Shown one piece after another: positions 1,213 to 26,340 of a stretch of 27,004 nucleotides of DNA; the stretch's first letter is position 1, and each line of letters opens with the position of its first letter. The notes beneath the pieces are model-generated. The model was not told the origin of the DNA. It saw nothing but the letters and a program-made list of their open reading frames with translations, and ran no database searches. The stretch spans positions 1 through 27,004 of IMG/VR virus record IMGVR_UViG_3300030687_000048; one strand, written 5' to 3'. The DNA comes from a virus. Made by a program: the position numbers and the translations under genes.

Positions 1213-2991
1213 ATGTCTTCAGTAACTCCAGAAACAACACCCCTATTTCTCATCACCAACGCAGGCCTGGCAGCTGCTTCAGTAGCAATGCCTGAAGGTC
1301 CTTACATCCACATAGTTGGATTCCAGATTGGCTCCGGGTACGGCTACACTCCGACATCTAGCCAAACAAGTATTCAGGGGACACTTCTTTACTCTGCGTC
1401 GCCTACAAGTTATCAATCGATTGGTAACAACACGTTAGATATTCTCTGTGAGATTCCGCCGACAGCAGGACCCTTCCAATTCGGTGAAGTCGCATTGTTC
1501 TTAGCAGATGCGGATGGGAATTTCAGCTCGTCTTCGGTGATGTTTTGTATCGCAGTATTCGAGACTCCGCAGACGAAGTTTTCATCGTTGGGAACGAACG
1601 TTGTCTCGTCCTATGATCTGAACTGTCTACTGAAACTTCAACAGTCGACTGCAGTATTTCAGATTTCGGATGCAACTGTACCTCCCGCTATCTACAATAT
1701 CTTTCAATGGTCGGATGTATACCCACCAGACATTTCGGCAAATCCGAGTATTCCTCAATACCTGGTAAAGGAATTGAATTCGTTTGGTGATGCATCGATA
1801 CTAGCGAATGCGACGGTGGATAACTGGTCAATTGAATCTTCCTCGTACGCACGCTACTATGGTCCACAAAGCGTCGCTACGATGCCCGTTGTAAATTCGT
1901 CTACCACGTGGATACAGATTGCTTCGTCCTACTTCTTTGCCAATGCGGTAACTGAAGGGGCGCACAACAGGAGATTCCTGGTACAGACAGCAACAGGGTT
2001 CTGGCGTTCGGTTAGTAGCATCGTGGTATCGGGTTCCAATCTGCAGTTGAATCTTAACTGTACGAACGATGGGACATATAATAACTCGCCGCTGCCCTCA
2101 GCCCCCACCGTTGGATCAGAAGTGCAAGTGTATTGCGATCTTGATGGTATTGGTCAACCGATCTATTACTCGCAGCTGTTGGGTACGCCTCCAGCACCTC
2201 CTGTTGCAACCCCTGGAACACCAGGTCTTGCTTATGGTGGAGCAGGTACGTACATGCCAGGCGGTGGAGCAATCAATGCATATGGACTGCTTCAATCACC
2301 ATCGACCTTGAGTGGTCGACCCCTGACGTCTGCTGATGACTTGAATAACATAGCACTACCCTCTGGCTTATACAACGCAACTACTGCATCGCCTCCAGCG
2401 AACATGCCGTTTAGCTGGGATGCCATGATATGGATTCACAATCTTGGCAACGGAACTTCAAGCTCAAACGGAGCAGACATAACACAGCTGGCTTTTCCGT
2501 GGGACACTGGTGGCGGACCAAATCAGAGTGGCTTGGGTGGATATCCTATGTACTTCCGTCAAGGTTCTAACTCAGGTGCTAACTGGACTAATTGGATGCC
2601 GCTGGCTACGGTTGGTCGTAAGTCTTTGCAGTCTGCAAACTTTGAGTCGCAATACACTTCGACAAACTTTATACCAGCTGGTGGTTCCACACATAACATC
2701 GGGCCACTGACGTTCACTCCCGCAACTTATGGGCAGGTGATGGGCATCATCATAAAGAATAATGCGTCGTCCAATGGAACATCCGCGTCCTCTGCCGTTA
2801 GTGTTACTTCGTCTACGTTGGGTGCGACAACAGATAGTGACCATACCCAATTATCGACGCAGCAAATTGCTGTACAGCAAGTGGCACCTGGTGACACCGT
2901 AACCATAGCTGGATCGATCGTACAGGATGCAGGAGGAGGTGGACCCCAGATGGGTATCAAGTTGACGTATGTCTTCATTCCTCAGTGGTAA
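1213..2991 (+). CDS. Tail-collar type fibre protein with pyocin-knob-like C-terminal region
   Basis: The product has 592 residues. The N-terminal part (about 1-150) contains ITNAGLAAAS, GFQIGSGYGYTP and GPFQFGEVALF. These match the layout of the phage tail-collar fibre N-terminal family (PF12571-like) and also the N-termini of the two minus-strand fibres at 19789-21855 and 22796-25087. Residues about 359-463 (LLQSPSTL, LPSGLYNA, MYFRQG, WTNWMPLA) look like a pyocin-knob domain, found near receptor-binding ends of fibres. The last about 120 residues are a separate Ser/Thr-rich beta domain ending in YVFIPQW. An AGAGG ribosome site lies seven bases before the ATG. The fibre probably attaches to the baseplate by its N-terminus and contacts the host by its C-terminus. 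It is the last gene of this plus-strand group and is followed by a terminator. Confidence 0.8.
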   Translation: MSSVTPETTPLFLITNAGLAAASVAMPEGPYIHIVGFQIGSGYGYTPTSSQTSIQGTLLYSASPTSYQSIGNNTLDILCEIPPTAGPFQFGEVALFLADADGNFSSSSVMFCIAVFETPQTKFSSLGTNVVSSYDLNCLLKLQQSTAVFQISDATVPPAIYNIFQWSDVYPPDISANPSIPQYLVKELNSFGDASILANATVDNWSIESSSYARYYGPQSVATMPVVNSSTTWIQIASSYFFANAVTEGAHNRRFLVQTATGFWRSVSSIVVSGSNLQLNLNCTNDGTYNNSPLPSAPTVGSEVQVYCDLDGIGQPIYYSQLLGTPPAPPVATPGTPGLAYGGAGTYMPGGGAINAYGLLQSPSTLSGRPLTSADDLNNIALPSGLYNATTASPPANMPFSWDAMIWIHNLGNGTSSSNGADITQLAFPWDTGGGPNQSGLGGYPMYFRQGSNSGANWTNWMPLATVGRKSLQSANFESQYTSTNFIPAGGSTHNIGPLTFTPATYGQVMGIIIKNNASSNGTSASSAVSVTSSTLGATTDSDHTQLSTQQIAVQQVAPGDTVTIAGSIVQDAGGGGPQMGIKLTYVFIPQW

Positions 2992-3002
2992 TTCCGAACA
3001 TT

Positions 3003-3020
3003 GAAGATGGAAAAGGCCAC
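3003..3020. repeat. 18-bp repeat at a terminator, copy 1
   Basis: The sequence gaagatggaaaaggccac occurs here and again at 4734-4751. In both places it forms one arm of a terminator stem plus the adjacent minus-strand T tract and tail. Hairpin loops and opposite arms differ between the two places. Confidence 0.75.
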
Positions 3021-3045
3021 CATGGTTTCATTCATGGTGGCCTTT
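3012..3045. terminator. Bidirectional rho-independent terminator between convergent genes
   Basis: A 13-bp perfect stem (3012-3024 pairing with 3033-3045) encloses an eight-base loop. On the plus strand the stem is followed by TTTATCTT. On the minus strand it is followed by a run of T. It sits between the stop of the fibre ending at 2991 and the stop of the minus-strand gene ending at 3056, so it can end both transcripts. Confidence 0.85.
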
Positions 3046-3055
3046 ATCTTGCCCA

Positions 3056-3463
3056 TTAGATACCGGTTAAGGTCGAGGTGAATGCCAGGATGACATTCGC
3101 CACTTCAGTTGTACTAGTGTTTGTCAGGACAAACGAAGTGAACGATTGATCGATGATAAACAATTGGTTCACGGTGATCGTTATAGCGATCGACCCATTG
3201 TTCAACGTCAGTTGTACCGGGCTATCAGTCGAGACTAGTAACGCAGTACAGGATTGACCTGGTGAGTACGATCCACTTGTAGCAATCGTCAGATTCTGTA
3301 CACTCTCATTAGTCGTCGGGTAATAACCGTTCACTAATCCCCGATGTCGAATCAGGTGGTTGACACCTTCCTGGATATCTACCTTGAACTTCAGGCTTAA
3401 TGTCGAGGCATTGGGTACGGAGATGATACAGTCTCCGCACGTCCCTATAACTTCGCTACTCAT
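3056..3463 (-). CDS. Short beta-rich protein, probable virion component
   Basis: The product has 135 residues when started at the ATG at 3463. That start has an AAGGAG ribosome site about seven bases upstream. An open frame extends further upstream but would overlap the preceding gene and has no such site. The protein is rich in Thr, Ser, Val and Ile and has no membrane segment. Its C-terminal half (residues about 85-133, with ITVNQLFIIDQSF, FVLTN and TEVANV) aligns by eye with residues about 70-118 of the neighbouring 398-residue fibre-like protein (LNVNQQTTIDDTV, FQVTN, TQVAVN). The two therefore probably share a small beta domain. The ribosome site overlaps the stop of the upstream gene, so translation may be coupled. 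Function is not recognised; a fibre accessory or decoration protein is an inference. Confidence 0.6.
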   Translation of the reverse strand: MSSEVIGTCGDCIISVPNASTLSLKFKVDIQEGVNHLIRHRGLVNGYYPTTNESVQNLTIATSGSYSPGQSCTALLVSTDSPVQLTLNNGSIAITITVNQLFIIDQSFTSFVLTNTSTTEVANVILAFTSTLTGI

Positions 3464-3474
3464 TGCCTTACTCC

Positions 3475-4671
3475 TTAGATTTGAACAGGTTGATCTGTTG
3501 AGAACACCCGCCAGTTCTCTGTAGACCAATATGCAGGAACGCCCGTCCCATGACCTGCAGCTTCACCAACTTTCCGTCCATTGGTAACAAAAATCATCGA
3601 CCCGTTAATTGTTCCCGTAGGAAGATCTGCGAATGCGTAAGAGATTGGTGATACTCCGATAACGCTTAACGTGCCATCGCCTGCTATAGTTACATTCGTC
3701 CCTTGCTTGACCCCACCAATCACGGATGCTGTTGCAGGAGCGATCGAAAGGGATCCCGATGTCACGGATAACCCAGACGTAGTGCTGACTTTAACACCAC
3801 CTAGAACTGTTGGTGATGCAGTGGGCAATGTATATGGAGCAGGGATATTATCAAGATCAGAATACGATCCGCTTGTCGCCACCAAAGCAAGAACAGGAGC
3901 ACCAGTCAAGGACGAATAGAGACCGGTTGTTGCTACAGGTGCAAGCGTGGGTGTATCGATGAGATTGTTATAGCTTCCTGTCGTTGCTACTGTAGCAAGA
4001 GTAGGAACGCCCGTCAAAGATGAATATGATCCCGTTGTTGCCACGGCGGCTAACTGAGGCTTGTTCAGGATCTGAGATAATCCCGAACTTGAATTCCAAT
4101 CGGCGTTTACCGGTGCTGTCGGAATAACAGGAAGATTTGTTAGACTGTTATAGCTACCAGTCGTTGCAACGGCCGCCAGGTTAGGAAGATTTATAAGGTT
4201 GAAGTAATTACCTGTTTGCGCGACCGTAGCTAAACCTGACAGCGAAGATGCAGTGAGGACGACTGCCCCCGTCTGACCATTCACCGAGGTGACTACAGAA
4301 GTAACAGGCGTTGATGTCGAGACCTGAACAATCCAGATGAGGTTGACTGCAACCTGAGTAGTGCCCGGATTCGTCACCTGAAAAGTATCAACTGTGTCAT
4401 CGATCGTTGTCTGTTGATTGACGTTCAAACTTATGTATGCGGGATTACTTCCCTTCTGCGCGGTAAGAACCACAGTGGCTTGTGGGTTCACAGTGATCTG
4501 CGAGAAGCCGGCAGGCGAGCTGAACTGCGACCCAGCTGACCCACTAGGTTGTAGCAACAGGGTTTGCGTTATAGTCTGTCCAGCCTGGTACAGCGAGGAA
4601 ATATTCTCCGCTATGCCCGCCGGCGTATTCTGTGTTCCGACCTGTGTGTTGACTACCAGACTCGAACTCAT
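3475..4671 (-). CDS. Repeat-rich tail-fibre-like protein
   Basis: The product has 398 residues. I chose the ATG at 4671 because GAAGGAG lies eight bases upstream; the longer open frame starting at 4701 has no ribosome site. Residues 1-120 form a beta-rich domain resembling the 135-residue neighbour. Then follow VTSVNGQTGAVVLTASSLSG, a hallmark of phage fibre shafts, and about six copies of a roughly 18-residue repeat (VATTGSYSSLTGVPTLA type). After these come LGGVKV repeats and a C-terminal domain of about 70 residues (YAFADLPTGTINGSMIFVTNG to the end). The SYSDLxxxP-type repeats are common in trimeric fibre shafts. It probably forms a short fibre or tail-tip appendage with the neighbouring small protein. 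No catalytic motif is seen. Confidence 0.72.
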   Translation of the reverse strand: MSSSLVVNTQVGTQNTPAGIAENISSLYQAGQTITQTLLLQPSGSAGSQFSSPAGFSQITVNPQATVVLTAQKGSNPAYISLNVNQQTTIDDTVDTFQVTNPGTTQVAVNLIWIVQVSTSTPVTSVVTSVNGQTGAVVLTASSLSGLATVAQTGNYFNLINLPNLAAVATTGSYNSLTNLPVIPTAPVNADWNSSSGLSQILNKPQLAAVATTGSYSSLTGVPTLATVATTGSYNNLIDTPTLAPVATTGLYSSLTGAPVLALVATSGSYSDLDNIPAPYTLPTASPTVLGGVKVSTTSGLSVTSGSLSIAPATASVIGGVKQGTNVTIAGDGTLSVIGVSPISYAFADLPTGTINGSMIFVTNGRKVGEAAGHGTGVPAYWSTENWRVFSTDQPVQI

Positions 4672-6197: not shown

Positions 6198-7271
6198 TTA
6201 TTTACCTATCTTACCCTTGACGTCTTCCAGTACTTTCTTACGCTCAGGGCTCAGGTTCTTCCCTGCTCTGTTGATATAAAAATTCAACGAAGATGATGCC
6301 TTACCCGTATCACCCTTATGACTCTTCTTCAACCACGAGGCAATCTCATCTGCGGATCCCTCCTTGAACAAACCTTCAGGTGGGTGCTTCTTGGTCTTGA
6401 CATCTGAACTCCATTTATCGGCCACCATGATATGCTTGAATGCACTATCAAGGATTGACGTAGCGTATGCAGAGTTCGATATCGGGTTGACTTCCTCAAA
6501 GTTGTTATCGAGTGAGTCCGATGTCGAATCACCCTTTACCTTCTTTGGGGCTATAGGAGTCTCTTCCAGGTTGTTGATCGCGGTAGAACCAGCTTCAGTC
6601 TCCTCAGGTTCTTCCACACTAGACATTCTTTGGTTGGGATCCTGCACCGAGTTCAGAATGGAAGCCTGAGCCAACCTGTTTCCAATCTTCATTAGAGAGC
6701 CCATTGTAACCCTTGCATTCAACTTCGGTGGGTTATCAACAAATTGAGGATCCTGCTCTGGATCCTTTTGACGATTGTCCGGTACTTCCTTCAAGAGGTT
6801 TACCATACCATCATCCTTGTTGTGACCAGGTGGCAAAGCATAAATCGACTGCTCATTCATTGCCCGGATACTACTAGTCGTTGTCGTCGAGTCAGATGTC
6901 GAAGTATCAGAAGTATCAGTTGATGTCTCCTGATCCCCGTACTGATTCTTCAAAGCTTCCTTGGATTGGTGCAGACGTTCCTTGTCTGCACCCTGCAGAT
7001 TACGACCATTGCGATTGATATAGGAATCGAGTTTCTTCTCAGCAGTTCCATAGTCAGGCGAATGATTCTTGACTATCTGCGCTATACCCGACGGACTTTT
7101 GTCGAACGTACCCTTGGGTAGAACCTGACCGGGCTTCCTCGGCTTATGGATTTGTTTGTCCTCCATCTCATGTTGCCAATTCATGTTCGGGTTATTATTG
7201 CTTGGGTTGTTACTCCCAATGCTATCATCGGCTTCTATCAACTGAGCCTTAATCATGTCCGCGATAATCAT
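6198..7271 (-). CDS. Protein with two DUF3175-like domains joined by a long disordered linker
   Basis: The product has 357 residues from the ATG at 7271, which has AGAGAG eight bases upstream. A TTG start 36 bases earlier would overlap the spanin gene and lacks a site. Two related segments occur. Residues about 56-112 contain GTFDKSPSGIAQIVK and SYINRNGRNLQ. Residues about 300-357 contain GLFKEGSADEIASWLK and FYINRAGKNLS. Both have the pattern of the DUF3175 family: F-x-x-x-x-x-x-IA, a basic stretch, then Y-I-N-R-x-G-x-N-L and a charged helix. Between them lie about 190 residues rich in Ser, Thr, Asp, Asn, Glu and Pro, including a run of Ser/Thr/Asp, probably disordered. The function of DUF3175 is unknown. 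A two-headed binding protein, perhaps on nucleic acid, is an inference from the duplicated basic domains. The gene follows the spanin genes by 16 bases and is probably co-transcribed with them. Confidence 0.65.
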   Translation of the reverse strand: MIIADMIKAQLIEADDSIGSNNPSNNNPNMNWQHEMEDKQIHKPRKPGQVLPKGTFDKSPSGIAQIVKNHSPDYGTAEKKLDSYINRNGRNLQGADKERLHQSKEALKNQYGDQETSTDTSDTSTSDSTTTTSSIRAMNEQSIYALPPGHNKDDGMVNLLKEVPDNRQKDPEQDPQFVDNPPKLNARVTMGSLMKIGNRLAQASILNSVQDPNQRMSSVEEPEETEAGSTAINNLEETPIAPKKVKGDSTSDSLDNNFEEVNPISNSAYATSILDSAFKHIMVADKWSSDVKTKKHPPEGLFKEGSADEIASWLKKSHKGDTGKASSSLNFYINRAGKNLSPERKKVLEDVKGKIGK

Positions 7272-7287
7272 CTCATTCACTCTCTTA

Positions 7288-7464
7288 TCAGGTCCCCGTT
7301 TTATCAATCTTGATCTTCTGACACTCTTTGTACATGCTGATGATATGTACGGTATAGTCCTTCAGAGTCTCCTGATCTCCCATGCTAGGAACATCCGGAC
7401 ACCCTGAGGATCGGGTAGCACATGAGGCGAGTAGCAGGGTGAATATCGCTATAACTGATCTCAT
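7288..7464 (-). CDS. Rz1-like outer-membrane spanin lipoprotein (o-spanin)
   Basis: This 58-residue frame starts MRSVIAIFTLLLASC, a lipoprotein signal peptide with lipobox LASC and acylated Cys15. The residue after that cysteine is Ala, not Asp, which favours outer-membrane sorting. The mature part is only 44 residues, with Cys22 and Cys48. Its ATG overlaps the TGA of the preceding coiled-coil membrane protein (ATGA), the usual coupling of Rz and Rz1 genes. By analogy with lambda Rz1 it would bind the inner-membrane partner across the periplasm and fuse the membranes in the last lysis step. It is less proline-rich than lambda Rz1, so the assignment rests on lipobox, size and position. Confidence 0.78.
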   Translation of the reverse strand: MRSVIAIFTLLLASCATRSSGCPDVPSMGDQETLKDYTVHIISMYKECQKIKIDKTGT

Positions 7465-7937
7465 TTGTTCTTCCCCTTCACTACTGCGTTGATCTGTTGA
7501 CGATCCTTTTCGGTCGCACCTTTGGTGACTTCCGTGACTGCGGTCTGTGCAGCAGAGGCAGCCTTCTTCATGGTCTCCAACTCGGCTTCGCGAACATGAA
7601 CCTGTTGCTTCTGGGTCAGCTGAACATTACCCACTATGTCTTTGAGTTGATGGATAAGTTCAGTCTGTTCCTCTATGCGACCAGTCTGCTCCGTCGTCAT
7701 ATCCTTGGCTTCCACCAGACGTGCGTCGCACTCCGCTGCCATGCGTTGTCTCTGTTCCGCCAGTTGGGCATACAGAGTAGCGCGTTCATTCCTGTCCCCG
7801 ATATTTTTCAGAGAGTATCCGAGAGCAAACATGCCAACGGTAAGGATTATTCCTATAGCATTTCTACGGAGTAACTCAGTTATGACTTCAGCGAGGACTG
7901 TAATTCGGGTACGTAGATTCGGTTTCTTTTCCTGCAT
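7461..7937 (-). CDS. Rz-like inner-membrane spanin (i-spanin)
   Basis: The product has 158 residues. A basic N-terminus (LRTR, RR) is followed by one membrane segment at about residues 27-43 (AIGIILTVGMFALGYSL). A long charged helical region (about 48-115, with many Glu, Gln, Arg and heptad-like spacing) follows, then an Ala/Thr/Lys-rich tail. This is the N-in, C-out layout of Rz-type i-spanins. The ribosome site GAGGAG lies six bases before the ATG at 7937. The gene overlaps the upstream 249-codon gene by 50 bases and its stop overlaps the start of the lipoprotein gene. Together with that lipoprotein it would form the spanin complex. A structural membrane protein is the alternative, but the adjacent lipobox protein makes spanin the best reading. 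Confidence 0.75.
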   Translation of the reverse strand: MQEKKPNLRTRITVLAEVITELLRRNAIGIILTVGMFALGYSLKNIGDRNERATLYAQLAEQRQRMAAECDARLVEAKDMTTEQTGRIEEQTELIHQLKDIVGNVQLTQKQQVHVREAELETMKKAASAAQTAVTEVTKGATEKDRQQINAVVKGKNK

Positions 7938-8637
7938 CTGATTCTCCTCGATTCAACTTCAATTCTTGTGGTGCTTCCAACAGGGATGGTAGCTCGTAGT
8001 TTTTCTTTACCAAGAGAGCCGTAAGCTTTGCCTCACCTTCCTTCGAGCCCGCCAACATCTTTACACCAACGAATTTATCAATTGCCGGCAGGATTTCATC
8101 TTCAAAGGCTGGGTGCATACGCATTGTCCCCCAATGATCGTGTGGGATATTGCTTGTTGATAGCAAGTGATTCTGTGCCGTATGAATCAACTGCAACTTC
8201 CACTCTTCGAACTGTGCAGCCTCGTGTGCTTGAGAATCCGATAGATGGGCATACTTTCGAAATGGTTGCAACTTGTCCTGACATTGACGAATGAACGCTA
8301 GTTCGGCGACAGCTGCGTCATAATTCTTCTGCGTTGTCCCTGCCAATGCGCGTAGCTCTTCGATATCCGCCAGAGCATCCATGTAATCGGGATCCTCCTT
8401 GTTAGCTTCTGCGATCTCACCTGTTTGAGGATCAATGAAGGAGGCCATGAGATGCTCAGCCCGTTTGATCTTAGCCTGATCTCTCAAACTGTAGGCCTTG
8501 AATGACTTAAGTGCATTCGAACGATCCTCTGCAAGATCACACAAGATCGAGTAGGCGGCATCCGCGGTCTGGCACGCGCCCGCAATGAAATAAGCAATCT
8601 GAAAATCATGGTTGAGTCGGTTGGTTTTGTAATGCAT
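7888..8637 (-). CDS. Conserved-looking helical protein of unknown function
   Basis: The product has 249 residues, mostly charged and amphipathic helix, with no membrane segment, signal peptide or recognised catalytic motif. An internal stretch reads SFIDPQTGEIAEANKEDPDY. The C-terminal tail is polar (TESTYPNYSPR). AGAGAG lies six bases before the ATG at 8637. The last 50 bases overlap the spanin gene, whose ribosome site lies inside this frame, so the two are translationally linked. Position between the propeller gene and the spanin pair is the only functional clue. I do not recognise the family; a lysis accessory or structural protein would be a guess. Confidence 0.6.
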   Translation of the reverse strand: MHYKTNRLNHDFQIAYFIAGACQTADAAYSILCDLAEDRSNALKSFKAYSLRDQAKIKRAEHLMASFIDPQTGEIAEANKEDPDYMDALADIEELRALAGTTQKNYDAAVAELAFIRQCQDKLQPFRKYAHLSDSQAHEAAQFEEWKLQLIHTAQNHLLSTSNIPHDHWGTMRMHPAFEDEILPAIDKFVGVKMLAGSKEGEAKLTALLVKKNYELPSLLEAPQELKLNRGESDAGKETESTYPNYSPR

Positions 8638-8670: not shown

Positions 8671-9576
8671 TCAGGTCCACCCAGGATTCGAAGATGTACC
8701 AGCGAGCCAGTAATTAGCTGTGGTCAAACTAGTGCCGGCGGCGACCGCGTTGTTACTGAAAGTGTAGACATCCGTTACAGAACTTCGTGTCGGTGTATTA
8801 TTGGTGGCTCCACCAGTGAACACTCCGATCACTGGATTACTACCTGATGCCAACTGTTCTCGAGCTACGGTAAGACTTGTCCCAGATACTGAAGTATTGC
8901 CCGAGTACGTATAGACTGAACTTGATGATATCGGTCCCATGCCTCCGGCGAATACTGCTTTCGCCGAAGTACCACACGCCGCTGGGTATTCTGCAGCTGT
9001 AGTTAGATTTGTGCCCGAGACATCTGAGTTGGTAGAGTACGTATAGATGTCTGTGACGTTGGTTATAGATCCCGTAAAGCCAGCACCGAAAAGTCCTATG
9101 GTAGTATTTCCTGCTGCAGCAAGAGCGTAGCGTGCGGTTTGTAAACTTCCTCCGGATGCGACAGTATTACCAGAGTATGTATAGACAACGGATGCAGTTG
9201 AAAATCCTGGAGTACCACCTGCGAATACAGCCACGCTAGTATTTCCAGCTGCGCCACTAGCGTAGTTGGCATTACTTAGTTGGGTTCCAGCCGATACTGT
9301 GTTAGTGCCATAAACGTAAAGATCGGTATATTGGATCTGCCCACCGTTGTATCCGTTGCCAATTATACCTTGGGTAGCGTTTCCTGTTGCATTGACTGCA
9401 TAACGCGCTTGACCAAGGTTTGTTCCTGAAGCCAACGTGTTGTTAGGGTAAGAATATTGAACCGTGGTGGCGATTACTGCTGCCGAGGTGTTGCCTCCGG
9501 CAAATAACGCGTACCCGGTGTTCGAAGGTGGCGGTGCACTATGGGATGCTGCGGCAAGGAGAAGAAATAAACTCAT
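8671..9576 (-). CDS. Six-repeat kelch-like beta-propeller protein, copy A
   Basis: The product has 301 residues. Six tandem repeats of about 45-48 residues fill it from residue 21 to the end. Each has a hydrophobic strand ending in GG (ALFAGG, AVFAGG, VFTGG), then VYTYSGNTVASGTSL-type and LTTARYALAAAGN-type segments. Length, Gly-Gly placement and repeat number fit a six-blade propeller of the kelch type. The N-terminus (MSLFLLLAAASHSAPPP) is hydrophobic but lacks basic residues, so a signal peptide is doubtful. A paralogue of nearly equal size lies at 21870-22796, and both end in SSNPG. The gene lies directly downstream of the giant fibre gene but beyond a terminator hairpin. No ribosome site is visible before the ATG at 9576. 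A receptor-binding or fibre-assembly role is inferred from context. Confidence 0.68.
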   Translation of the reverse strand: MSLFLLLAAASHSAPPPSNTGYALFAGGNTSAAVIATTVQYSYPNNTLASGTNLGQARYAVNATGNATQGIIGNGYNGGQIQYTDLYVYGTNTVSAGTQLSNANYASGAAGNTSVAVFAGGTPGFSTASVVYTYSGNTVASGGSLQTARYALAAAGNTTIGLFGAGFTGSITNVTDIYTYSTNSDVSGTNLTTAAEYPAACGTSAKAVFAGGMGPISSSSVYTYSGNTSVSGTSLTVAREQLASGSNPVIGVFTGGATNNTPTRSSVTDVYTFSNNAVAAGTSLTTANYWLAGTSSNPGWT

Positions 9577-9592: not shown

Positions 9593-9617
9593 AGAGGTCA
9601 CCCTTCGGGTGACCTCT
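9593..9617 (-). terminator. Strong rho-independent terminator after the giant fibre gene
   Basis: An 11-bp perfect stem (9593-9603 with 9607-9617) has a three-base loop. On the minus strand it is followed by TTTCGGG. It begins six bases after the giant-fibre stop and ends 17 bases before the start of propeller copy A. It should end most of the lysis/fibre transcript and limit read-through into the propeller and spanin genes. Confidence 0.82.
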
Positions 9618-9622
9618 ACTGA

Positions 9623-12600
9623 TTAGGTGGCCATCGCTAGGCCGAGTGTGAATATCATGTAAACGGCGCTGATTGCATCGTATTTGACGCCAATCATGTC
9701 AATACCCGAAGCTGATAACGTGGGCGCAGTTCCACCCGAGTACAATGAACCTGTGGGCCATGTAATATTTGTCCCACCATTTGTTATACGAAGATATACT
9801 ACCTGCCCAGTACTCGTCCCCAAAGTATTCGTGAATGCAATCGTAGTAGCCGCGGACACGGTGAATGCAAATTCTGAGTACAACCCTAAATCGAGTGTTA
9901 ACGTTCCAGAAGTCGAACCGATATTGTCTATCGCATAACTTTGTGAAGTAGTTTGCAATCTGCGGGTCAACGCTGCGGGTTGAACTGCAATGACACCAAC
10001 AGTATTGGATATGACAGAAGTCGCAACTGTTTCCGTAGCCAACACTACAGACTGCGGAAGCACCAAGCCTGCGCCACTTCCGTTCGTCAAAGTAACTGTG
10101 AAAGCGTTAGTACTAGTATTCGTCGTCGTGTTATAAACCGTCCAGGACCCGACTGTAGGAACTGTAACTACCACACTCGCCGTCAAGGTACCTGTGAAAA
10201 TTATAACTGGTACCGAATACTGGGTAGCTGTGAGTGTAACATTTGATCCCGTCAAAGCTACCGAAGAAGAGCCCTGATCCGCATTGTAGACAAAAGCTGT
10301 TGTCGCCAACTGAGTTGTATCTGTACCTGTTGATGCCGTAGGCGCTGTTGGAGTTCCCGTAAATGCAGGCGACGCCAGAGGTGCATAAGTTCCCGTAGTT
10401 GCAGCTTGAACAAAAGCAGTGGTTGCAAGCTGGGTCGTGTTCGTACCCGTAGTTGCCGTAGGAGCCGTAGGAACACCGGTCAACGCCGGATTAGCTAAGG
10501 GCGCGAATGAGGTCGCAACGAATGCCGTTGTTGCCACTTGAGTTGTGCTCGTTCCAGCCGTTGCCGTAGGTGCTGCTGGTACTCCGGTGAATGTCGGAGA
10601 AGCCAGTGTTGCGATCCCGGTTACTGCGCCTGTGCTTCCATTCACTGAAGAAACACCAGTGATGATAGGATTCACAGGAAGCACACCAGCAGATCCATCC
10701 GAGATATAAGGCGATGTTGCGGTTCCCGACTGCGGCACCACGGCGGTCGCACCCGTACCATTCGACAACGTGACCGAGAACGCTCCACTTGTTGCGTTGT
10801 AGAAGATCCACTGACCCGAAGTCGGCACCGTTACGGTGACGTTTGCGGTCAGAGTGCCTGTGAAGATAATAACCGGTACCGAATATTGGGCCGCGGACAG
10901 CGTAACGTTTGCTGCGGCCAATGCAACCGTTGCAGATCCTTGTGTCGCCCTGTACACATAAGAGTCTGTCGCAATCTGCACCGAGTTGTCACCCGCTGCA
11001 GCAGTTGGAGCTTGTGGTGTCCCCGTAAATACAGGTGAAGCCACAAGAGCACCGCCGGCGCCGCTAATGTCTGTGTTCGTCAGCGTCACCGTTCCCGAAC
11101 GTGTGTTGAACGTATTGACAACAGTTGAGCCACCGCCTGCTATGGTAACCATACCTGCTGTCGAATTCGCCACCACCGGCAACGTGTTTTCCGTTGCTTG
11201 CGGGATCACAAGATTCTGCCCAGCGCCATTACCCAATGTTACAGTGAATGCTCCGGTGCAAAGGTTAAGAACTTCCCATGCACCAGAGCCTGGCATCGTA
11301 ATAATGATGTTAGCTGTTAAAGTTCCTGTAAATTCCAAAATCTCCGCACTGTACTGGGCTGCCGTCAATACTAGTGTGGTTGCTCCGCCAGTTAAACTGA
11401 TTACCGCTGTGCCTTGAGTCGCCGCATAGACGTACGCCGTGGTTGCTACGTCTGTGTTATTGACACCTATTGTCGGCGTCGGAGCAACCACGGTTCCCGT
11501 GAACGTCGGACTAGCCGCCGGTGCTCCACCCACTCCTGTTACGTCTGCCAACGTCAGTACCACAGAGCCCGTCCTACCGAATACCGAAACAACGTTTGCC
11601 GATAGTACACCAGTTCCGGAAATCGTGACGCCCGTACCTTGCGAAACGATACCTGCCGTTGAACCTGTTGCTGCGGAAACTGCAATGTCGCCCGAAGAGT
11701 TAACCGTTAGCCCGGAACCATTCGGAACAATCACACCACCGAGCGTTGTTGACGTGGCTGGCGTTAAGGTGAACGCAGAGATGTTTGAGTTGACGATACC
11801 CAGAGTGCCCAGAGATATGACGCTCGAGCTTTCGTTATCGAGAGCCACATAAGTAGCACCACTTCCGTTACTCAACGTTACATTAAACGTCCCGCCGGAT
11901 GACGTAGTGTTATTGTAGAACGACCAGATACCACTCGTCGGCAACGTCAAAGTCAGATTGGCAGTAAGACTTCCCGTCAACTCAATAACAGTTGTACCAT
12001 ATTGCGATGCTGGAACGGTATAAGGTGAAGTCAACCCACTGACGTTAATCGTAGTCGTATTTAACATCGCGTTGCTAACGAACGCCGTCGAAGCTGCAGC
12101 CGTGGAGCTCGTACCTTCCGCAGCTGTCGGAACCGTAATCGAACCACCAGTGAAACTATTTGCTGCCGTCCACGTATTAGCCGAAGCAACAAGGGCACCA
12201 CCCGCCCCAGTTATATCCCCACTCACCAGAGTAACCGCACCCGAGCGAGTATTGAACGAAGTAACAACACCCGTTCCCAAACCTAACACATCTTGAACGT
12301 AAGCAGTCGTCGCTATGTTTGTTGAGTTATCCGTAGGCGATTGCGTAACTGCGGTGCCCGTCGAAGGAATAACACCCAACGTAAGATTACTCAACACCTG
12401 AATCGAAGTGCCCTGAGCCAGCACGTAGGTAGCGGTACCTCCATTGCCCAACGTCAGAGTAAATGAAGTTGAACCTGTAGTGGAGTTGTGGAATGTCCAT
12501 TGCCCTGTGATAGGAATCGTTACCGCGATACTAGCAGTTAACGCCCCTGTGAAATAAATAACAGGGAAACTTAGTTCTGCGGTCGTCAAATTCAATGAGC

Positions 12601-15600
12601 TAGATCCACCAGCAAGACTAACGGTCGTCGATCCAGTCAGCGTCGTTCCCACGACGAATGCAGTTGTCGCCAACTGAGTGGTTGAAGTTCCATTGGCCGC
12701 TGTCGGAGCTGTTGGAGTTCCCGTAAATGCAGGCGACGCCAACAGCGCACCACCAACTCCCGTAACGTCTGAAGCTTGCAGTGTTACAACGCCGACCCGC
12801 GTGTTGAATGAGTTGACGACATTCGATCCACTACCTAGCAATGTATGGACGAACGAAGTAGTAGCCAGGTTGTTCGAGTTATCCAAAGACGCTGTGGTAA
12901 TACCCGAGGTGATGGCAGGTAAAACTCCAAGGTTTGTATCGCTAAACAGGTGGACCGAGGATCCTTCTTGAAGGACAAATGTTGCTCCCGAAGTCACGCC
13001 GTTCGACAATGTAAGAGTAAAGCTTCCTGCATTAGTCGTTTCGTTGTAGAAGATCCATTGACCCGGGAACGGCAGGGTAACGATAACATTTGCCGTCAGG
13101 TTACCAACGAAAATCACCGTATTGTAGTTAGCGTTCGTGCCCAGAGAGATATTCGAGGAACTAACGGTGACGCTTATAGAAGCCGCCAGCGTATTTTGTA
13201 CAAATCCCGTCGTTGCCAACTGCGTCGTATCGGTGCCCACCGAAGCTGTAGGAGCAGTTGGAGTTCCCGTGAATGCTGGAGAGGCTAGAGGAGCGGCGCC
13301 AGATATATCCGTTACCGACAATGTGACTGCACCCGTTCTCCCCGCTACAGTTGTGACATTGGCCGAAAGTAAACCACTCGTTTGAACAGTTAATCCCGAA
13401 CCAATGATTACCCCACCAAGAGTTGTCGTCGTTGCGGGTTGAACACCACCAGACGCAACCGCTGTAGTAACGAATGCTGTCGTCGCTATCTGAGTTGTAT
13501 TCGTTCCCGGTGACGCCGTTGGTGCAACAGGAACACCAGTGAATGACGGAGAGGCAAGAGGAGCTCCACCAGCGCCCGTGACGTCTGCAAGTGTTAAAGT
13601 GACCACGCCTATCCGGGTGTTGAACGAGGTGACTGCTCCGCTGGACAGCGAGGCTTGAACAAAAGCTGTTGTCGCTATCTTTGTGGTGTTGTCACCCGTC
13701 GACGGTGTAGTCGAGGTCGGTACTCCCGTGAATGCAGGAGAATTCAGAAGTGCACCACCAGCTCCAGTAATATCCGTGCTGTTGAGCGTGACTGCCCCAT
13801 TCCGACCGTTAAAGGTCGTAACTCCCGCATTCGTCGTAATCGCAGCTTGAACAAATGCGGTTGTTGCCAACTGAGTTGTATTCGTCCCAGCAGTAGCTGT
13901 TGGTGCTGTCGGCGTCCCAGTTAGTGCAGGAGAATTCAGAGGCGCATAACTCACCAGGTTATTCTGAACGTACGCCGTGGTGGCCAGGCTCGTATTATTT
14001 GTACTAGTCGAAGGCGTCGGGGCGGTGGGTGTTCCCGTAAATGCAGGACTAGCCAGCAAAGCTCCACCGACTCCTGTGACATCGGCAGCCTGAAATACGA
14101 CTGCGCCGGTGCGAGTATTGAAGGAAGTAACACCCGTAGCCAACGTTGCTATAACTTCCTGAACGTATGCAGTCGAGGCTGCATTGTTCGAATCGTCCGA
14201 AGTTGCTACGGTCGGTACAGTAATTGTTCCACCGGTGAAACTATTTGTTCCCGTGTAGTTGTTATTCCCGGAAAGCGTATTGTTGTTCCCCGCTATAACC
14301 GCACCAAGATTTACTATGTCAGAGAGTTGCAGGGTGACAGCCCCGATACGACCATTGAACGAAGTGATAACCTGAGTTGGATCAACACTTAGAGTTCCAC
14401 CGACAGTTATCGCCAAACCGGATCCAGGCTTGACTGCACCATTTGCCGAAGTAGTTGCGGCGGGCAGGTCTCCTCCGACCAATGAACGGAACGTCGGCTG
14501 ATTTGCAGAGCCCGTTGTCGGCCCAGCCCAAATCAGATTTGCATTCTGACTGTTCAGCGTCGCAGTCAGAGTCCCTGTTGTCGTCACCGGAGAACCAGAC
14601 ACCGTGAAAATCGGAGGCATCGCCAACCCGACTTCCGTAACCGTACCACCCGTTGCACCAGAAGCTGCGATGGTGATGGTCGAACCTGAAGTCGTAACGG
14701 TGACGCCTGTACCTTCGGCAATCGTTACTGCACCTGCTGTTGTGTTTATCGAAGTTACGACATCCGTGTCATTGATAGAAAGGTTGCCCGAACCATCAAC
14801 GACCAATCCACCGGAAGGTGGAACAATTACCCCACCAAGAGTTGTCGTCGTTGCTATGACCAAAGGCGTTGTTGAGATTACGCCATCATCCGTGATAGCT
14901 ATTCCGGATCCAGCAATTACGCCACCCAAGGTCGAATCAGTAGCAGGAGGCAGGTCATAATCGAGTTGCCCATTACCTTGAACCGACAGCGTAGGACCAA
15001 CGATGATACCGCCCAACGAACTAGTCGTTGCCGCCGCCAAGGTATAAGGTACTACTGCGAGCGTGCCATCTGATTGAACAGTCAACCCCGAACCAACGAT
15101 TACCCCACCAAGAGTTGTCGTCGTTGCGGGATTGAGTTGCAGCGCATTAGCACTAAGTGTTCCATCTCCAGCAATCGTCAGGTTCGATCCGACCTTTATA
15201 CCACCCAATGTCTGCGAACTTGCAATCGGTAAGACGTAGGGCGTCGGCGTATTAATCAGGTCGTCATAGTTGCCTGTCGTCGCTACGGTTGCCAAGCCAG
15301 TGATATCTGAAGCCGTGATAACGACTGCCCCTGTCTGACCATTCACCGAAGTAACAGGAGGAGTTATGGATGCTGCAGCAATCGTGATCGTATCAAGACC
15401 GACGTCTTGCGTTATCGTGATGTTAGCGCCTGCAGATATCGACTTCAGGAGGGCGATGGTTGTCCCACCCGAACCATCATAGTTCACCAGAGAAGTTCCG
15501 GAGCCCGTCGATTGAACTGCGGTTAAATTCCCGCCACCGCCCGTATTATTCGTGGCATTGATCGTTACGCTGTTACCGTCTGTCGCGAAGTTAACATTCG

Positions 15601-16570
15601 CACCAGCAACAAGTTCTTTGATTTGCGCAACCTGTGTGACTGAGCCATCGTTAGCAACGAGAGTAGTACCTCCAGCCTCTGGTGAAGATTGAACAGCTTG
15701 CACGTAGCTCGGAATAGATAGCGCTATATCCGTGCCATTGTCCGTCAACGTGATATCACCGGTGCTAACCAGATTCTTTATCAGGATATTGCCGGTTGTC
15801 GCTCCGCTATCGCTTACCAAGGACAGCGAGGTGGAAGAAGTAGTCTCTGCCGGGAGAGCTTGAACAACAACGGCTCCCGTTGACCCACCAGTTTGTCCAT
15901 TCACGCTGTGGATGATATCGAGAGCCGAAGGACTTTCTGCTACCCATTGACTAATCGAGTTCGAGAAGCGCAGGAGATAACCATCAATCGCCGGACCTTC
16001 CGAAATGCTAACGTCCGGAAGATTGCGAAGGTATACATTTACGTTGTGGTTCGAATCAACACCAACGCCGTTCACCGTCCAAACAGCCGAAGCCAGTTCA
16101 GGTGCAAGATCCGGAATATCAGTAATCTGCAACTCGACATTGCCAGAAGCATCTGGATCAACGCCATTGACCGAATAGACTCCTGCTGCGACATCAAACG
16201 ATTGAATGACACCGTAGAAGCCATTCAGAACTGCATCAACTACTGTACCATTGATTGGTAAACCATTGACGAATACCGAGGTCGTTGTCTGAGATCCACC
16301 GTAATCCACATCCTCGGTTGAGTTGTAGATGACGGTGATACCCGCGCCATTTATTATAGCTTGCGTGATAGGTTCATATGGGATGGCAAGTTTCCACCCG
16401 CCGTTAGAACCGACATAGAGACCGGGCACATACGAACCCAAGCTCGATTGCAGAACAACAACTTCATTTTGCGGGTTAGCGTCGAGAGAGGTAACCCAAG
16501 GAACAACGTAAGGCTCTGACTGAGCACCATTGACCAACGTTACTTGATAATAAAAGATCGGGTCCGCCAT
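9623..16570 (-). CDS. Giant modular tail fibre protein (2315 residues)
   Basis: The product has 2315 residues. Residues 1 to about 100 are a non-repeated N-terminal domain, probably the attachment to the tail. The next about 630 residues carry VNGQTGAVVI and ATTTTLGGVIVGSGLTVQ-type shaft repeats. From about 730 come many copies of FNTRTGAVTLT, LASPAFTGTPTAPT and TTQLATTAFVQ, as in phage_fiber_2-type shafts. Between residues about 1127 and 2190 six copies of a roughly 90-residue beta module occur, each with FTGTLTANVTVTVP and GQWIFYN-like cores. The last about 125 residues (from TRRLQTTSQSYAI on) are unique and likely the host-contact tip. The ribosome site before the ATG at 16570 is weak. Upstream, 34 bases away, is the endolysin gene, so fibre and lysis genes appear co-transcribed. 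The gene is intact with no frameshift. Confidence 0.88.
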   Translation of the reverse strand: MADPIFYYQVTLVNGAQSEPYVVPWVTSLDANPQNEVVVLQSSLGSYVPGLYVGSNGGWKLAIPYEPITQAIINGAGITVIYNSTEDVDYGGSQTTTSVFVNGLPINGTVVDAVLNGFYGVIQSFDVAAGVYSVNGVDPDASGNVELQITDIPDLAPELASAVWTVNGVGVDSNHNVNVYLRNLPDVSISEGPAIDGYLLRFSNSISQWVAESPSALDIIHSVNGQTGGSTGAVVVQALPAETTSSTSLSLVSDSGATTGNILIKNLVSTGDITLTDNGTDIALSIPSYVQAVQSSPEAGGTTLVANDGSVTQVAQIKELVAGANVNFATDGNSVTINATNNTGGGGNLTAVQSTGSGTSLVNYDGSGGTTIALLKSISAGANITITQDVGLDTITIAAASITPPVTSVNGQTGAVVITASDITGLATVATTGNYDDLINTPTPYVLPIASSQTLGGIKVGSNLTIAGDGTLSANALQLNPATTTTLGGVIVGSGLTVQSDGTLAVVPYTLAAATTSSLGGIIVGPTLSVQGNGQLDYDLPPATDSTLGGVIAGSGIAITDDGVISTTPLVIATTTTLGGVIVPPSGGLVVDGSGNLSINDTDVVTSINTTAGAVTIAEGTGVTVTTSGSTITIAASGATGGTVTEVGLAMPPIFTVSGSPVTTTGTLTATLNSQNANLIWAGPTTGSANQPTFRSLVGGDLPAATTSANGAVKPGSGLAITVGGTLSVDPTQVITSFNGRIGAVTLQLSDIVNLGAVIAGNNNTLSGNNNYTGTNSFTGGTITVPTVATSDDSNNAASTAYVQEVIATLATGVTSFNTRTGAVVFQAADVTGVGGALLASPAFTGTPTAPTPSTSTNNTSLATTAYVQNNLVSYAPLNSPALTGTPTAPTATAGTNTTQLATTAFVQAAITTNAGVTTFNGRNGAVTLNSTDITGAGGALLNSPAFTGVPTSTTPSTGDNTTKIATTAFVQASLSSGAVTSFNTRIGVVTLTLADVTGAGGAPLASPSFTGVPVAPTASPGTNTTQIATTAFVTTAVASGGVQPATTTTLGGVIIGSGLTVQTSGLLSANVTTVAGRTGAVTLSVTDISGAAPLASPAFTGTPTAPTASVGTDTTQLATTGFVQNTLAASISVTVSSSNISLGTNANYNTVIFVGNLTANVIVTLPFPGQWIFYNETTNAGSFTLTLSNGVTSGATFVLQEGSSVHLFSDTNLGVLPAITSGITTASLDNSNNLATTSFVHTLLGSGSNVVNSFNTRVGVVTLQASDVTGVGGALLASPAFTGTPTAPTAANGTSTTQLATTAFVVGTTLTGSTTVSLAGGSSSLNLTTAELSFPVIYFTGALTASIAVTIPITGQWTFHNSTTGSTSFTLTLGNGGTATYVLAQGTSIQVLSNLTLGVIPSTGTAVTQSPTDNSTNIATTAYVQDVLGLGTGVVTSFNTRSGAVTLVSGDITGAGGALVASANTWTAANSFTGGSITVPTAAEGTSSTAAASTAFVSNAMLNTTTINVSGLTSPYTVPASQYGTTVIELTGSLTANLTLTLPTSGIWSFYNNTTSSGGTFNVTLSNGSGATYVALDNESSSVISLGTLGIVNSNISAFTLTPATSTTLGGVIVPNGSGLTVNSSGDIAVSAATGSTAGIVSQGTGVTISGTGVLSANVVSVFGRTGSVVLTLADVTGVGGAPAASPTFTGTVVAPTPTIGVNNTDVATTAYVYAATQGTAVISLTGGATTLVLTAAQYSAEILEFTGTLTANIIITMPGSGAWEVLNLCTGAFTVTLGNGAGQNLVIPQATENTLPVVANSTAGMVTIAGGGSTVVNTFNTRSGTVTLTNTDISGAGGALVASPVFTGTPQAPTAAAGDNSVQIATDSYVYRATQGSATVALAAANVTLSAAQYSVPVIIFTGTLTANVTVTVPTSGQWIFYNATSGAFSVTLSNGTGATAVVPQSGTATSPYISDGSAGVLPVNPIITGVSSVNGSTGAVTGIATLASPTFTGVPAAPTATAGTSTTQVATTAFVATSFAPLANPALTGVPTAPTATTGTNTTQLATTAFVQAATTGTYAPLASPAFTGTPTAPTASTGTDTTQLATTAFVYNADQGSSSVALTGSNVTLTATQYSVPVIIFTGTLTASVVVTVPTVGSWTVYNTTTNTSTNAFTVTLTNGSGAGLVLPQSVVLATETVATSVISNTVGVIAVQPAALTRRLQTTSQSYAIDNIGSTSGTLTLDLGLYSEFAFTVSAATTIAFTNTLGTSTGQVVYLRITNGGTNITWPTGSLYSGGTAPTLSASGIDMIGVKYDAISAVYMIFTLGLAMAT
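13407..13435. repeat. 29-bp shaft repeat DNA, copy 1
   Basis: Identical at DNA level to 14826-14854 and 15099-15127. On the minus strand it encodes the TTTLGGVI repeat peptide. Confidence 0.8.
14826..14854. repeat. 29-bp shaft repeat DNA, copy 2
   Basis: Identical to 13407-13435 and 15099-15127 and encoding the same TTTLGGVI peptide. Other copies of this peptide in the gene use different codons. Confidence 0.8.
15099..15127. repeat. 29-bp shaft repeat DNA, copy 3
   Basis: Identical to 13407-13435 and 14826-14854. The first 26 bases also occur at 20747-20772 in a different fibre gene. A 28-base stretch at 15087-15114 recurs at 23481-23508 in a third. Confidence 0.8.
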
Positions 16571-18909: not shown

Positions 18910-19792
18910 CACCAACTGGTATCTATATCGCGCCATGCTGGTAGCCGGTAAATCATCGAGACCAATAGAGCAGTCATTACCTTACGCCCTGCTATCCATG
19001 ATCTGTGGCGATGCGCTTGCTGTTGGTGCCAACTATGTCCTGGCAGCGTTTGACGGTCCGAAAGTATTCAGGCACAAGATATACCCGGCGTACAAAGCGA
19101 ACCGTGAAGGTAGGAATAACGATGGTCGAACTGATGCAGAGAATGCAGAACAGGGAGAATCGGATAAGGATCGCATGTACGCATGCCTACCCTACGTCTT
19201 CGAGCTATTCGATAAGATTGGTCTAGCTTACTACGTCCCGAAGATATACGAAGCGGATGATGTTCTGTGTTCCATCGCAAGAAAGTATGGATCAACTTAC
19301 AGGATTGCTTGTGGCACACAGGACAAGGACGCTTATCAATATTTGTCTGACACTGTTTGGTTATATGACTCGAGCGCCAAGGGGAAGGACGGAAAGAAGA
19401 AGCCGAAGTGGATACGTCCCGCGGACGCAGAGAAGATAAAGGGTGTTAAGATAAGTCAGATGATAGCATATCAGACGCTGCTTGGTGACATGGGTGACAA
19501 CGTTCAACCAATCAAGGGTATGGATAAGCGGGTGGTGAAGAAGATATTGACAGAGTACGGATCGATAACGAGGTGGGGTCGAGCAAACAAGGCAAATGCG
19601 AAATTTCTCACCATTCACTCTGAGAGAATTCAGTTGAATCGCAAGTTAGTGACGCTTGTTGACACAGCTATTCCACCGGGTGATCCTAAAGAATGGAAGC
19701 TCCTGAAGAAGAAACCAAATGATCGATTTCTCAGCCGGAGCTTCCACGAGCTACATAACCTCTTATGGCCTAAGACCAAGGGTTTATTTTAG
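18887..19792 (+). CDS. 5'-3' exonuclease / flap endonuclease (T5 exonuclease type)
   Basis: The product has 301 residues, close to the size of phage T5 D15 and the N-terminal nuclease of DNA polymerase I. Family motifs occur in order: VSDTNWYLYR (Asp8), AAFDGPKVFRH and YPAYKANR (Asp56, Arg62, Lys70, Arg73), EADD (Glu122, Asp124, Asp125), GTQDKD (Asp146, Asp148) and GDMGDN (Asp201, Asp204). These are the acidic two-metal residues and the DNA-binding arch region. The enzyme removes RNA primers and 5' flaps in phage replication. After GDMGDN an H3TH-like stretch (IKGMDKRVVKKIL) follows. The ATG at 18887 has AAGGAA about six bases upstream and lies inside the previous gene. Its TAG stop overlaps the stop of the convergent fibre gene by four bases. 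Confidence 0.9.
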   Translation: MERIFVSDTNWYLYRAMLVAGKSSRPIEQSLPYALLSMICGDALAVGANYVLAAFDGPKVFRHKIYPAYKANREGRNNDGRTDAENAEQGESDKDRMYACLPYVFELFDKIGLAYYVPKIYEADDVLCSIARKYGSTYRIACGTQDKDAYQYLSDTVWLYDSSAKGKDGKKKPKWIRPADAEKIKGVKISQMIAYQTLLGDMGDNVQPIKGMDKRVVKKILTEYGSITRWGRANKANAKFLTIHSERIQLNRKLVTLVDTAIPPGDPKEWKLLKKKPNDRFLSRSFHELHNLLWPKTKGLF

Positions 19793-21869: not shown

Positions 21870-22796
21870 TTAGAAGCCGCCCGGGTTGGAAGATGTAGCT
21901 GCAAAATCATCTGTAGCTGTGGTAAGACTTGTTCCCGAAGTAACGACATTACCAGAGAAGGTATAGACGTCGGTAACGCTTTGAGTCGTTGTCCCATCCG
22001 TGCCTCCACTAAAGAGACCGAAAGTGGGATTAGAAGCTGCCGCAAGATTATACCGAGCAGTACCAAGATTTGTACCACTTACCCTAGCATCACTAGAATA
22101 CGTTACAACACTAGTAGTAAGCTGAGGGACACTTGTTGAATTTGCGCCACCACCGAAAACTGCAACCGTTCCATTACCACAAGCTGCCAAATTACCTAAA
22201 GCTGTACCAAGGGAAGAACCATTGCTGGATGTGTTAGAGGTCAGGTTGTAGACACTTGAAAGTGCAGTCGGTCCGGAAGCTATTTCACCACCAGCAAAAA
22301 TACCAGTTGTGGCATTCGATGCAGCTGCCAAGGTATAGCTTGCGTTGGTTAGATTTCCTCCAGCACCAACAATGGAACTTGAGTACGTATAGACATAGGT
22401 TACAGCAGTTATTGTCGAGCTTGAGCTGCTGGTATTACCTCCACCGAAAACTGCATTAGTTGAGTTTCCGCACGCCGCCAATTCGGCCGTGCCTGTTGTG
22501 AGGCTTGTACCCGGAGCTACGGTGTCTCCTGAGTACGTGTACGTATCGCTGACCGTTTCATAAACTCCACCCGCAGTTCGGCCGCCTGCAAAAATCCCTA
22601 TACTCGTAGTCCCAGCTGCTGCAAGAAATAATCGTGCGGTCCCGAGATTTGTACCCGAAGATAAAGCGTTGGTTGAATAAGTATATTTTTGAGAGGCGTT
22701 GGTAACTCCACCACTATTATCCCCGCCAGCGAAGAGGGCGAATCCCGCCTGGGCAATAACAGGTTTACCCCACCACGGATTATAGATAAAAGGCAT
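21870..22796 (-). CDS. Six-repeat kelch-like beta-propeller protein, copy B
   Basis: The product has 308 residues. Six repeats of about 46-50 residues run from residue 18 to the end. Their strands end in GG (ALFAGG, GIFAGG, AVFGGG, GIFAGG, AVFGGG, GLFSGG), each followed by YTYS and SGTNLGTAR-type segments. It is a paralogue of the 301-residue protein at 8671-9576 with the same repeat count and the same SSNPG ending. The N-termini differ (MPFIYNPWWGKPVIAQ here). The start overlaps the stop of the 763-residue fibre gene (TAATG), so translation is probably coupled. The next fibre gene follows 14 bases later. This placement between two fibre genes supports a role in host binding, fibre capping or assembly, but no enzymatic residues are recognised. 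Confidence 0.72.
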   Translation of the reverse strand: MPFIYNPWWGKPVIAQAGFALFAGGDNSGGVTNASQKYTYSTNALSSGTNLGTARLFLAAAGTTSIGIFAGGRTAGGVYETVSDTYTYSGDTVAPGTSLTTGTAELAACGNSTNAVFGGGNTSSSSSTITAVTYVYTYSSSIVGAGGNLTNASYTLAAASNATTGIFAGGEIASGPTALSSVYNLTSNTSSNGSSLGTALGNLAACGNGTVAVFGGGANSTSVPQLTTSVVTYSSDARVSGTNLGTARYNLAAASNPTFGLFSGGTDGTTTQSVTDVYTFSGNVVTSGTSLTTATDDFAATSSNPGGF

Positions 22797-26259: not shown

Positions 26260-26266
26260 GAGTGAT

Positions 26267-26274
26267 CTCCTTCT
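26267..26274 (-). promoter_or_regulatory. Ribosome binding site that fixes the endonuclease start
   Basis: On the minus strand AGAAGGAG lies seven bases before the GTG at 26257-26259. The upstream ATG and TTG codons in the same frame have nothing comparable, so this site decides the start. Confidence 0.7.
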
Positions 26275-26340
26275 GAATACCATGAAATTTGATACCGCAA
26301 CCAGTAAATATTCCTCAGACTTCATAAGGTGCGTAGCATA

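Follow-up and report, generated by a model that had tools for sequence, protein, structure and literature searches.

Kelch propellers encoded beside tail-fibre genes of a probable jumbo phage, and a linked helical protein that may assist their assembly

A 27,004-base IMG/VR virus record, here called the window, encodes a kelch-like repeat protein (P0001) directly after a giant tail-fibre gene, and a paralogue (P0002) after a second fibre gene. An earlier note on this DNA saw in this repeated pairing an undescribed fibre-propeller module. The locus raises the question of whether the fibre is the characteristic neighbour of the propeller, and what the two would do together. The features concerned are as follows.

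7888–8637, minus strand: partner gene, 249 residues, predicted all-helical, directly downstream of P0001; proposed adhesin assembly factor
8671–9576, minus strand: kelch propeller P0001, 301 residues, six predicted blades (residues ~21–297)
9517–9576, minus strand: N-terminal ~20 residues of P0001 (pLDDT 46–57); candidate fibre-docking peptide
9593–9617, minus strand: hairpin of 11 bp with a tail of four T, between the giant fibre gene and P0001 (z −3.7)
9623–16570, minus strand: giant tail fibre P0003, 2315 residues, upstream of P0001; C-terminal tip at 9626–9955
19789–21855, minus strand: fibre-like paralogue P0005, 688 residues, after P0002; PF12571 match below cut-off
21870–22796, minus strand: second kelch propeller P0002, 308 residues, with an NPxW-type N-terminal peptide
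22796–25087, minus strand: tail fibre P0004, 763 residues, Phage_tail_fib PF12571, upstream of P0002; C-terminal tip at 22799–23128

The two propeller proteins are as the earlier note described them. Both open reading frames are real, the 301- and 308-residue products are 47% identical over residues 15–299 of P0001, and each contains six repeats of about 46 residues. A blade HMM, whose training set includes P0001 and P0002 themselves, finds six copies in the L027 protein, which is identical to P0001 (E = 6e-75). The AlphaFold2 model of P0001, built from an alignment of 25 sequences, is the closed propeller that had been expected, with 24 strands, four to each of the six blades (mean pLDDT 92.6, pTM 0.89) and low confidence for the first ~20 residues. 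Foldseek matches this model to human and designed kelch domains (E = 3e-21, TM about 0.85), and a VIA comparison superposes it onto Keap1/SAKe kelch domains with a Z of 40.5 and an rmsd of 1.8 over 274 residues. On the evidence of this model, P0001 is a closed six-bladed kelch propeller, and P0002 is taken to have a similar fold because of the 47% identity. A chance or low-complexity origin of the P0001 repeats is ruled out, since the modelled fold matches solved kelch domains. The Pfam kelch models remain below their cut-offs for both proteins (P0001, 13.5 versus 22 bits for Kelch_3; P0002, 12.9 versus 21.6 bits for Kelch_4); kelch membership is a claim about the fold, not about the Pfam Kelch models. 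The PHROGs profile phrog_19111, which has no named function, matches both propellers (1.2e-14 and 6.2e-20). The polyglycine-II sandwich domain of T2-type gp38 adhesins was also considered, and the P0001 model is a kelch propeller instead.

In all likelihood the window is part of a jumbo phage genome, since its left and right parts match a 32-kb contig (L003, 99.3% identity) and a 215-kb contig (L004, 99.6%), respectively, over the parts fetched; judged by these matches, both contigs appear to belong to the same phage. Hypervariation of P0001, P0002 and the partner gene within the population was considered and left nothing to test: in the fetched parts, the window does not differ from L003 within P0001 or the partner gene, nor from L004 within P0002. 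Of the 145 differences between the window and L003, 75 cluster in window positions 2500–3499 (L003 being 99% identical), which resembles a recombination or assembly boundary. By the proteins searched, the nearest relatives among phage records are BcepSaruman and BcepSauron, Burkholderia phages of about 263 kb, with 42% identity for the 5'-3' exonuclease and 35–37% for the N-terminal part of the fibre. Beyond the exonuclease, the corresponding BcepSaruman interval holds a single tail-collar gene followed by plus-strand genes; therefore, the fibre, kelch and endonuclease genes of the window look like insertions or duplications. The endonuclease-like gene (25081–26421, phrog_3339, homing-endonuclease-like) adjoins fibre P0004. 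Elsewhere in the window, the protein encoded at 6198–7307 has two DUF3175 matches (Pfam, 3.6e-17) and no PHROG match.

The position of the propeller genes directly downstream of long fibre genes is confirmed at both loci. P0001 starts 46 nt after the stop of P0003, and the P0002 gene overlaps that of P0004 by one base. P0003 and P0001 may be on separate transcripts because of the strong hairpin between them, which is absent from the list of a terminator scan that demands five T where the hairpin has four. P0002 has no adjoining partner gene.

In related loci, too, fibre-like genes are common upstream of propellers. Eleven of 25 genes upstream of stand-alone propellers match the unnamed family phrog_5906, while named tail-fibre families account for up to four each; after dereplication, 25 of 48 upstream genes have a fibre-tip motif of one of three kinds at their end. 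At three loci, the propeller is fused behind an N-terminal segment that belongs to a known protein of the tail or virion. The L020 protein joins a tail fibre/tailspike N-terminus (phrog_1640, 7e-39; phrog_1171, tail spike, 4e-21) to a kelch C-terminus (phrog_19111, 1e-20), the kelch domain of L035 follows the tail protein phrog_1887, and that of L076 follows phrog_587, a structural protein placed by PHROGs in the category head and packaging. Five further propellers (L033, L042, L043, L128 and L049) were not counted as fusions because their N-termini have no PHROG match. Homologues are thus not found mostly away from fibre genes, the outcome that would have spoken against the earlier proposal, and are often next to fibre-like genes or fused to tail or virion domains. 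The proposed fibre-propeller module, however, stands only in part: the fold and the frequent fibre neighbourhood support it, whereas the steadiest neighbour of the propeller is the gene downstream, and the pair of BcepSaruman and BcepSauron lies far from the annotated fibre genes.

This downstream partner gene (7888–8637 in the window), rather than the fibre gene, is the most constant kelch neighbour. IMG/VR viral contigs were searched with the partner first, with no kelch sequence in the query; 14 loci came from the first search and 80 of 94 confirmed loci from a wider profile, 81 in all. The gene immediately upstream could be read for 77 partner ORFs, and for 73 of these it is a kelch. This figure combines two sets: 71 of 75 called ORFs (80 ORFs from 79 of the 81 loci, less five without an upstream gene), and two loci that the greedy ORF caller overlooked and that were inspected manually (L076 and L095), both with kelch upstream. 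After dereplication at 90% partner identity, the called set gives 34 of 38. The two genes share a strand in 70 of 71 cases and are separated by −4 to +15 nt in 59 of 71. The exceptions come from L037, L038 and L066, the last with two adjacent partner ORFs. L037 and L066 carry kelch at another place on the contig. On L038, the full kelch profile finds no kelch, and the neighbour of the partner is at best a very diverged one (E = 0.49, or 0.0085 in a second reading).

Outside these 81 loci, kelch adjoins the partner in L109. L108, a 216,249-base contig of a Rhodoferax MAG that may be a jumbo phage placed in a bacterial genome bin, carries a partner with no adjoining kelch and six kelch genes elsewhere on the contig. 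A putative adhesin array is seen in L041 (about 6–11 kb), where two kelch genes precede and two follow a single partner gene. Beyond viral contigs, a partner search of the genome collection gave two loci, and tblastn with the window partner against 72,556 plasmid records gave none. When two family members were compared with 50,697 phage records by tblastn, the partner was found in only four, namely BcepSaruman and BcepSauron in their GenBank and RefSeq versions. The phage of the window (two records) has two propellers and one partner, and each of the five partner-bearing records examined has one partner copy beside one to six kelch genes. Fused propellers are also followed by a partner, of this family in L035 and L076 and of a second, ~280-residue family in L020. 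A search that started from kelch gave one of the two partner families in 12 of 15 loci; neither family was present in L021, L022 or L012, the last of which is a fragment from the same phage as the window.

BcepSaruman and BcepSauron, the only isolated phages found to carry the pair, encode a propeller of the window family (BcepSaruman_110/BcepSauron_109, 33–34% identity) adjacent to a partner homologue (BcepSaruman_109/BcepSauron_108, 43–44%), as in the window. Unlike in the window, the two genes are divergent, and some 120 kb separate them from the gene annotated as long tail fibre. The kelch gene is on the plus strand amid minus-strand genes, and no feature in the surrounding 41 kb, most of it hypothetical, is annotated as a tail protein; the pair itself is annotated only as kelch-motif or hypothetical proteins. 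Because these phages keep the partner and not a fibre beside kelch, a fibre gene as the obligate companion of the propeller was rejected as too narrow an idea.

The partner is predicted to be all-helical (pLDDT 85.7), with a long helical hairpin followed by a C-terminal helical domain, and its N-terminal motif is near-invariant. Foldseek finds nothing in the PDB below an E of 0.6. The best VIA match is to UvsY, for the hairpin only, with a Z of 8.8, in a range that the tool deems common, and BFVD matches are mostly uncharacterised phage proteins (best 4e-5). The structural matches of the model are too poor to hint at a function. Pfam gives no match to the window partner up to E 0.1, and only unrelated matches below cut-off to the L013 partner and BcepSaruman_109; 39 partners together match 15 PHROGs families, and none of these bears the name of a chaperone.

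Marine-type kelch loci have a gene of ~280 residues in place of this partner. Among the matches listed, 79 such genes occur in 80 of 490 confirmed loci; kelch is immediately upstream of 67 of these 79 and within three genes of 73, farther off for one, and absent from the locus for five. The two partner families are probably related, as judged from profile comparisons. The HMM of the first family, run against 987 ORFs of second-family loci, has second-family members among 39 of its best 40 matches, the top match being a different gene that follows a kelch-like gene. The reverse search is weaker: beyond the second family, its best matches range from 5e-5 to 0.05, and the first of these (L088) is not a partner. 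As hhalign between the families is weak (3.9% and then 33.5%), we do not claim their homology as proven.

More distant relatives are associated with other proteins. Among 18 proteins, S-ShM2_038 (phrog_1409, cyanophage T4-GC 353) is matched by both partner HMMs (5.6e-4 and 8e-12), and the phrog_1409 profile matches two of 39 partners at E ≤ 0.1 (best 5.9e-4). This probable remote relative resembles the partner in lying near the end of a block of fibre and adhesin-like genes, and differs in that neither blade HMM recognises its neighbours as kelch (best 0.16). The S-ShM2 block (28823–36275, L194) comprises fibre, Gly-rich and short adhesin-like genes, then the partner-like T4-GC 353 gene and, by eye, oxygenase-like genes. 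S-ShM2_038 has relatives in 123 phage records, and every one of these records bears the name of a Synechococcus phage, a Prochlorococcus phage or a cyanophage. The available text of one cyanophage paper (PMC3037559) covers an analysis of the S-SM1 virion and names a Kelch-repeat protein of P-HM2; the S-SM1 genome has no phrog_1409 match, and our kelch profile has none in P-HM2. Virion evidence for phrog_1409 relatives was not found in the published text searched, supplementary tables aside. PaBG_00123, in the replication region of phage PaBG, is a further partner relative (profile positions 20–112, 4e-15); no kelch was detected in that phage.

Sequence variation in the propeller, mapped on the P0001 model, looks greater on one face than on the other. 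Mean entropy is 2.39 in the loop between the GG and YTY strands and 2.36 in the loop that joins the third strand to the fourth, compared with 1.55 and 1.34 for the other two loops. By strand order in the model, the two variable loops would share one face, which may correspond to the peptide-binding face of Keap1. The third blade strand is nearly as variable as these loops (2.19). Pairwise comparison of 47 loci shows the partner to be better conserved than the adjoining kelch in 885 of 1081 pairs, with mean identities of 0.51 and 0.41, respectively, and the identities of the two proteins are correlated (rho 0.85), as shared descent predicts.

The short N-terminal peptide of the propeller varies together with the tip of the upstream fibre. 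The similarity of the two is correlated (Mantel 0.33; n = 48), also when propeller similarity is controlled for (partial 0.26); the effect is modest, and the p value of 5e-4 for the partial test is the floor for 2000 permutations. These 48 pairs, out of 67 of kelch and upstream gene, remained after dereplication, and their N-termini were trimmed heuristically, some wrongly (for example L058, L088 and L074). Of these pairs, 35 fall into four combinations of N-terminal peptide and upstream tip: NPxW with F1 (3 pairs, the class of P0002), SAQGFG with F2 (18), short hydrophobic with F3 (4, the class of P0001) and YxGG with F4 (10, the upstream protein being a putative fibre). All 35 pairs classed on both sides are matched, five being classed on the propeller side only and eight on neither, with class motifs that were written post hoc, from sequences already seen; the Mantel test preceded them. 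P0001 and P0002, 47% identical and from one phage, belong to different classes, each with its own fibre. The NPxW propeller of BcepSauron has no fibre beside it. This pattern could in part reflect the shared descent of gene clusters.

Taken together, we consider it somewhat probable that P0001 and P0002 are exchangeable adhesins of the tail tip and that the partner is a dedicated assembly factor. The propeller would be the distal adhesin of the virion, its variable face meeting the host and binding the receptor, and its short N-terminal peptide would fit into the C-terminal tip of the upstream fibre. The partner, mainly a coiled-coil protein by its model, may act like a chaperone, by analogy with V22 gp27, Mu Tfa and T4 gp38; we propose that it serves the phage's propellers in trans because the window's phage has two propellers and only one partner. 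Several observations point against this reading, namely the layout in BcepSaruman and BcepSauron, the location of P0002 without a partner, the hairpin before P0001, and partner relatives without kelch, both PaBG_00123 and the cyanophage genes located by other adhesin-like proteins.

Parallels with characterised assembly factors bear on the role of the partner. The accessible part of one report (PMC7289586) describes V22 gp27 (DUF4376) as a chaperone that the receptor-binding protein cannot do without but that is missing from the final complex; it, T4 gp38 and Mu Tfa are each encoded by a small gene directly downstream of a receptor-binding gene, a position that the partner would share if the kelch gene encodes the receptor-binding protein. 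Pam3 gp25, in the portion of its description available (PMC9608196), embraces the distal part of the fibre. The partner differs from all four in having no Pfam or PHROGs match to a named chaperone family, in its all-helical model, and in following propellers. It could instead be an adaptor, retained in the virion as the link between propeller and fibre, a reading that we regard as unlikely. Its long helical hairpin with a C-terminal helical domain, its near-invariant N-terminal motif and its tight linkage to kelch would all suit such a component. However, fused propellers, which would not be expected to need an adaptor, are still followed by a partner, and the single copy in the window phage would have to serve two propellers on different fibres.

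The separate, exchangeable adhesin that we favour for the propeller has a counterpart in the T2-type gp38 proteins (S16, PP01), which, as far as the available accounts go, are separate fibre-tip proteins whose protruding loops bind the receptor (PP01); unlike P0001, they form a polyglycine-II helix lattice. The closest precedent for the kelch fold is the Pectobacterium jumbo phage CBB, for which the available text (PMC5259590) lists the kelch proteins CBB_550, CBB_552 and CBB_554 beside structural genes, as in the window, and reports CBB_552 in virions. Laminin_G_3 proteins are among the CBB kelch neighbours, unlike in the window, and neither our kelch profile nor our partner profile matches the CBB genome. 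That jumbo phages encode kelch proteins, and carry one of these in the virion, was already published. The pair of propeller and partner, in contrast, was not found described in the open-access literature searched (preprints and most subscription papers lay outside it), nor did that literature yield mass spectrometry of virions from any phage that carries it.

The same evidence bears on two readings that place the propeller elsewhere. Kelch domains commonly bind peptides, and the kelch gene of BcepSaruman and BcepSauron is a lone plus-strand gene amid metabolic and hypothetical ones, both of which would fit a protein that acts inside the cell, in host takeover or as a decoy, and has nothing to do with the tail, its fibre neighbourhood being accidental. 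We consider this highly improbable, given the propeller fusions to tail and virion domains, the fibre-like genes upstream at many loci, and the virion-borne CBB_552 (in the text of PMC5259590 available). That the propellers decorate the tail shaft or baseplate like whiskers, as the whisker-like tail structures of CBB beside its kelch proteins (same text, PMC5259590) and the head-and-packaging category of the L076 fusion partner phrog_587 might suggest, is very doubtful when both window propellers come after a fibre, the L020 propeller is fused to a tailspike/fibre N-terminus, and N-terminus and fibre-tip classes are matched.

If the propellers are indeed exchangeable tail-tip adhesins assembled with the help of the partner, they may belong to a widespread receptor-binding system of environmental phages, in which kelch adhesins plug in through docking classes and a single partner superfamily, spanning jumbo phages, T4-like cyanophages and marine phages, also serves adhesins other than kelch; we put forward this wider picture only tentatively. 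The question is testable, because the pair is a compact two-gene unit carried by the cultured phages BcepSaruman and BcepSauron. A positive answer would give a function to two unannotated gene sets, the kelch family phrog_19111 and a partner that has no named family, and would provide a sequence rule for spotting receptor-binding proteins in metagenomic phages.
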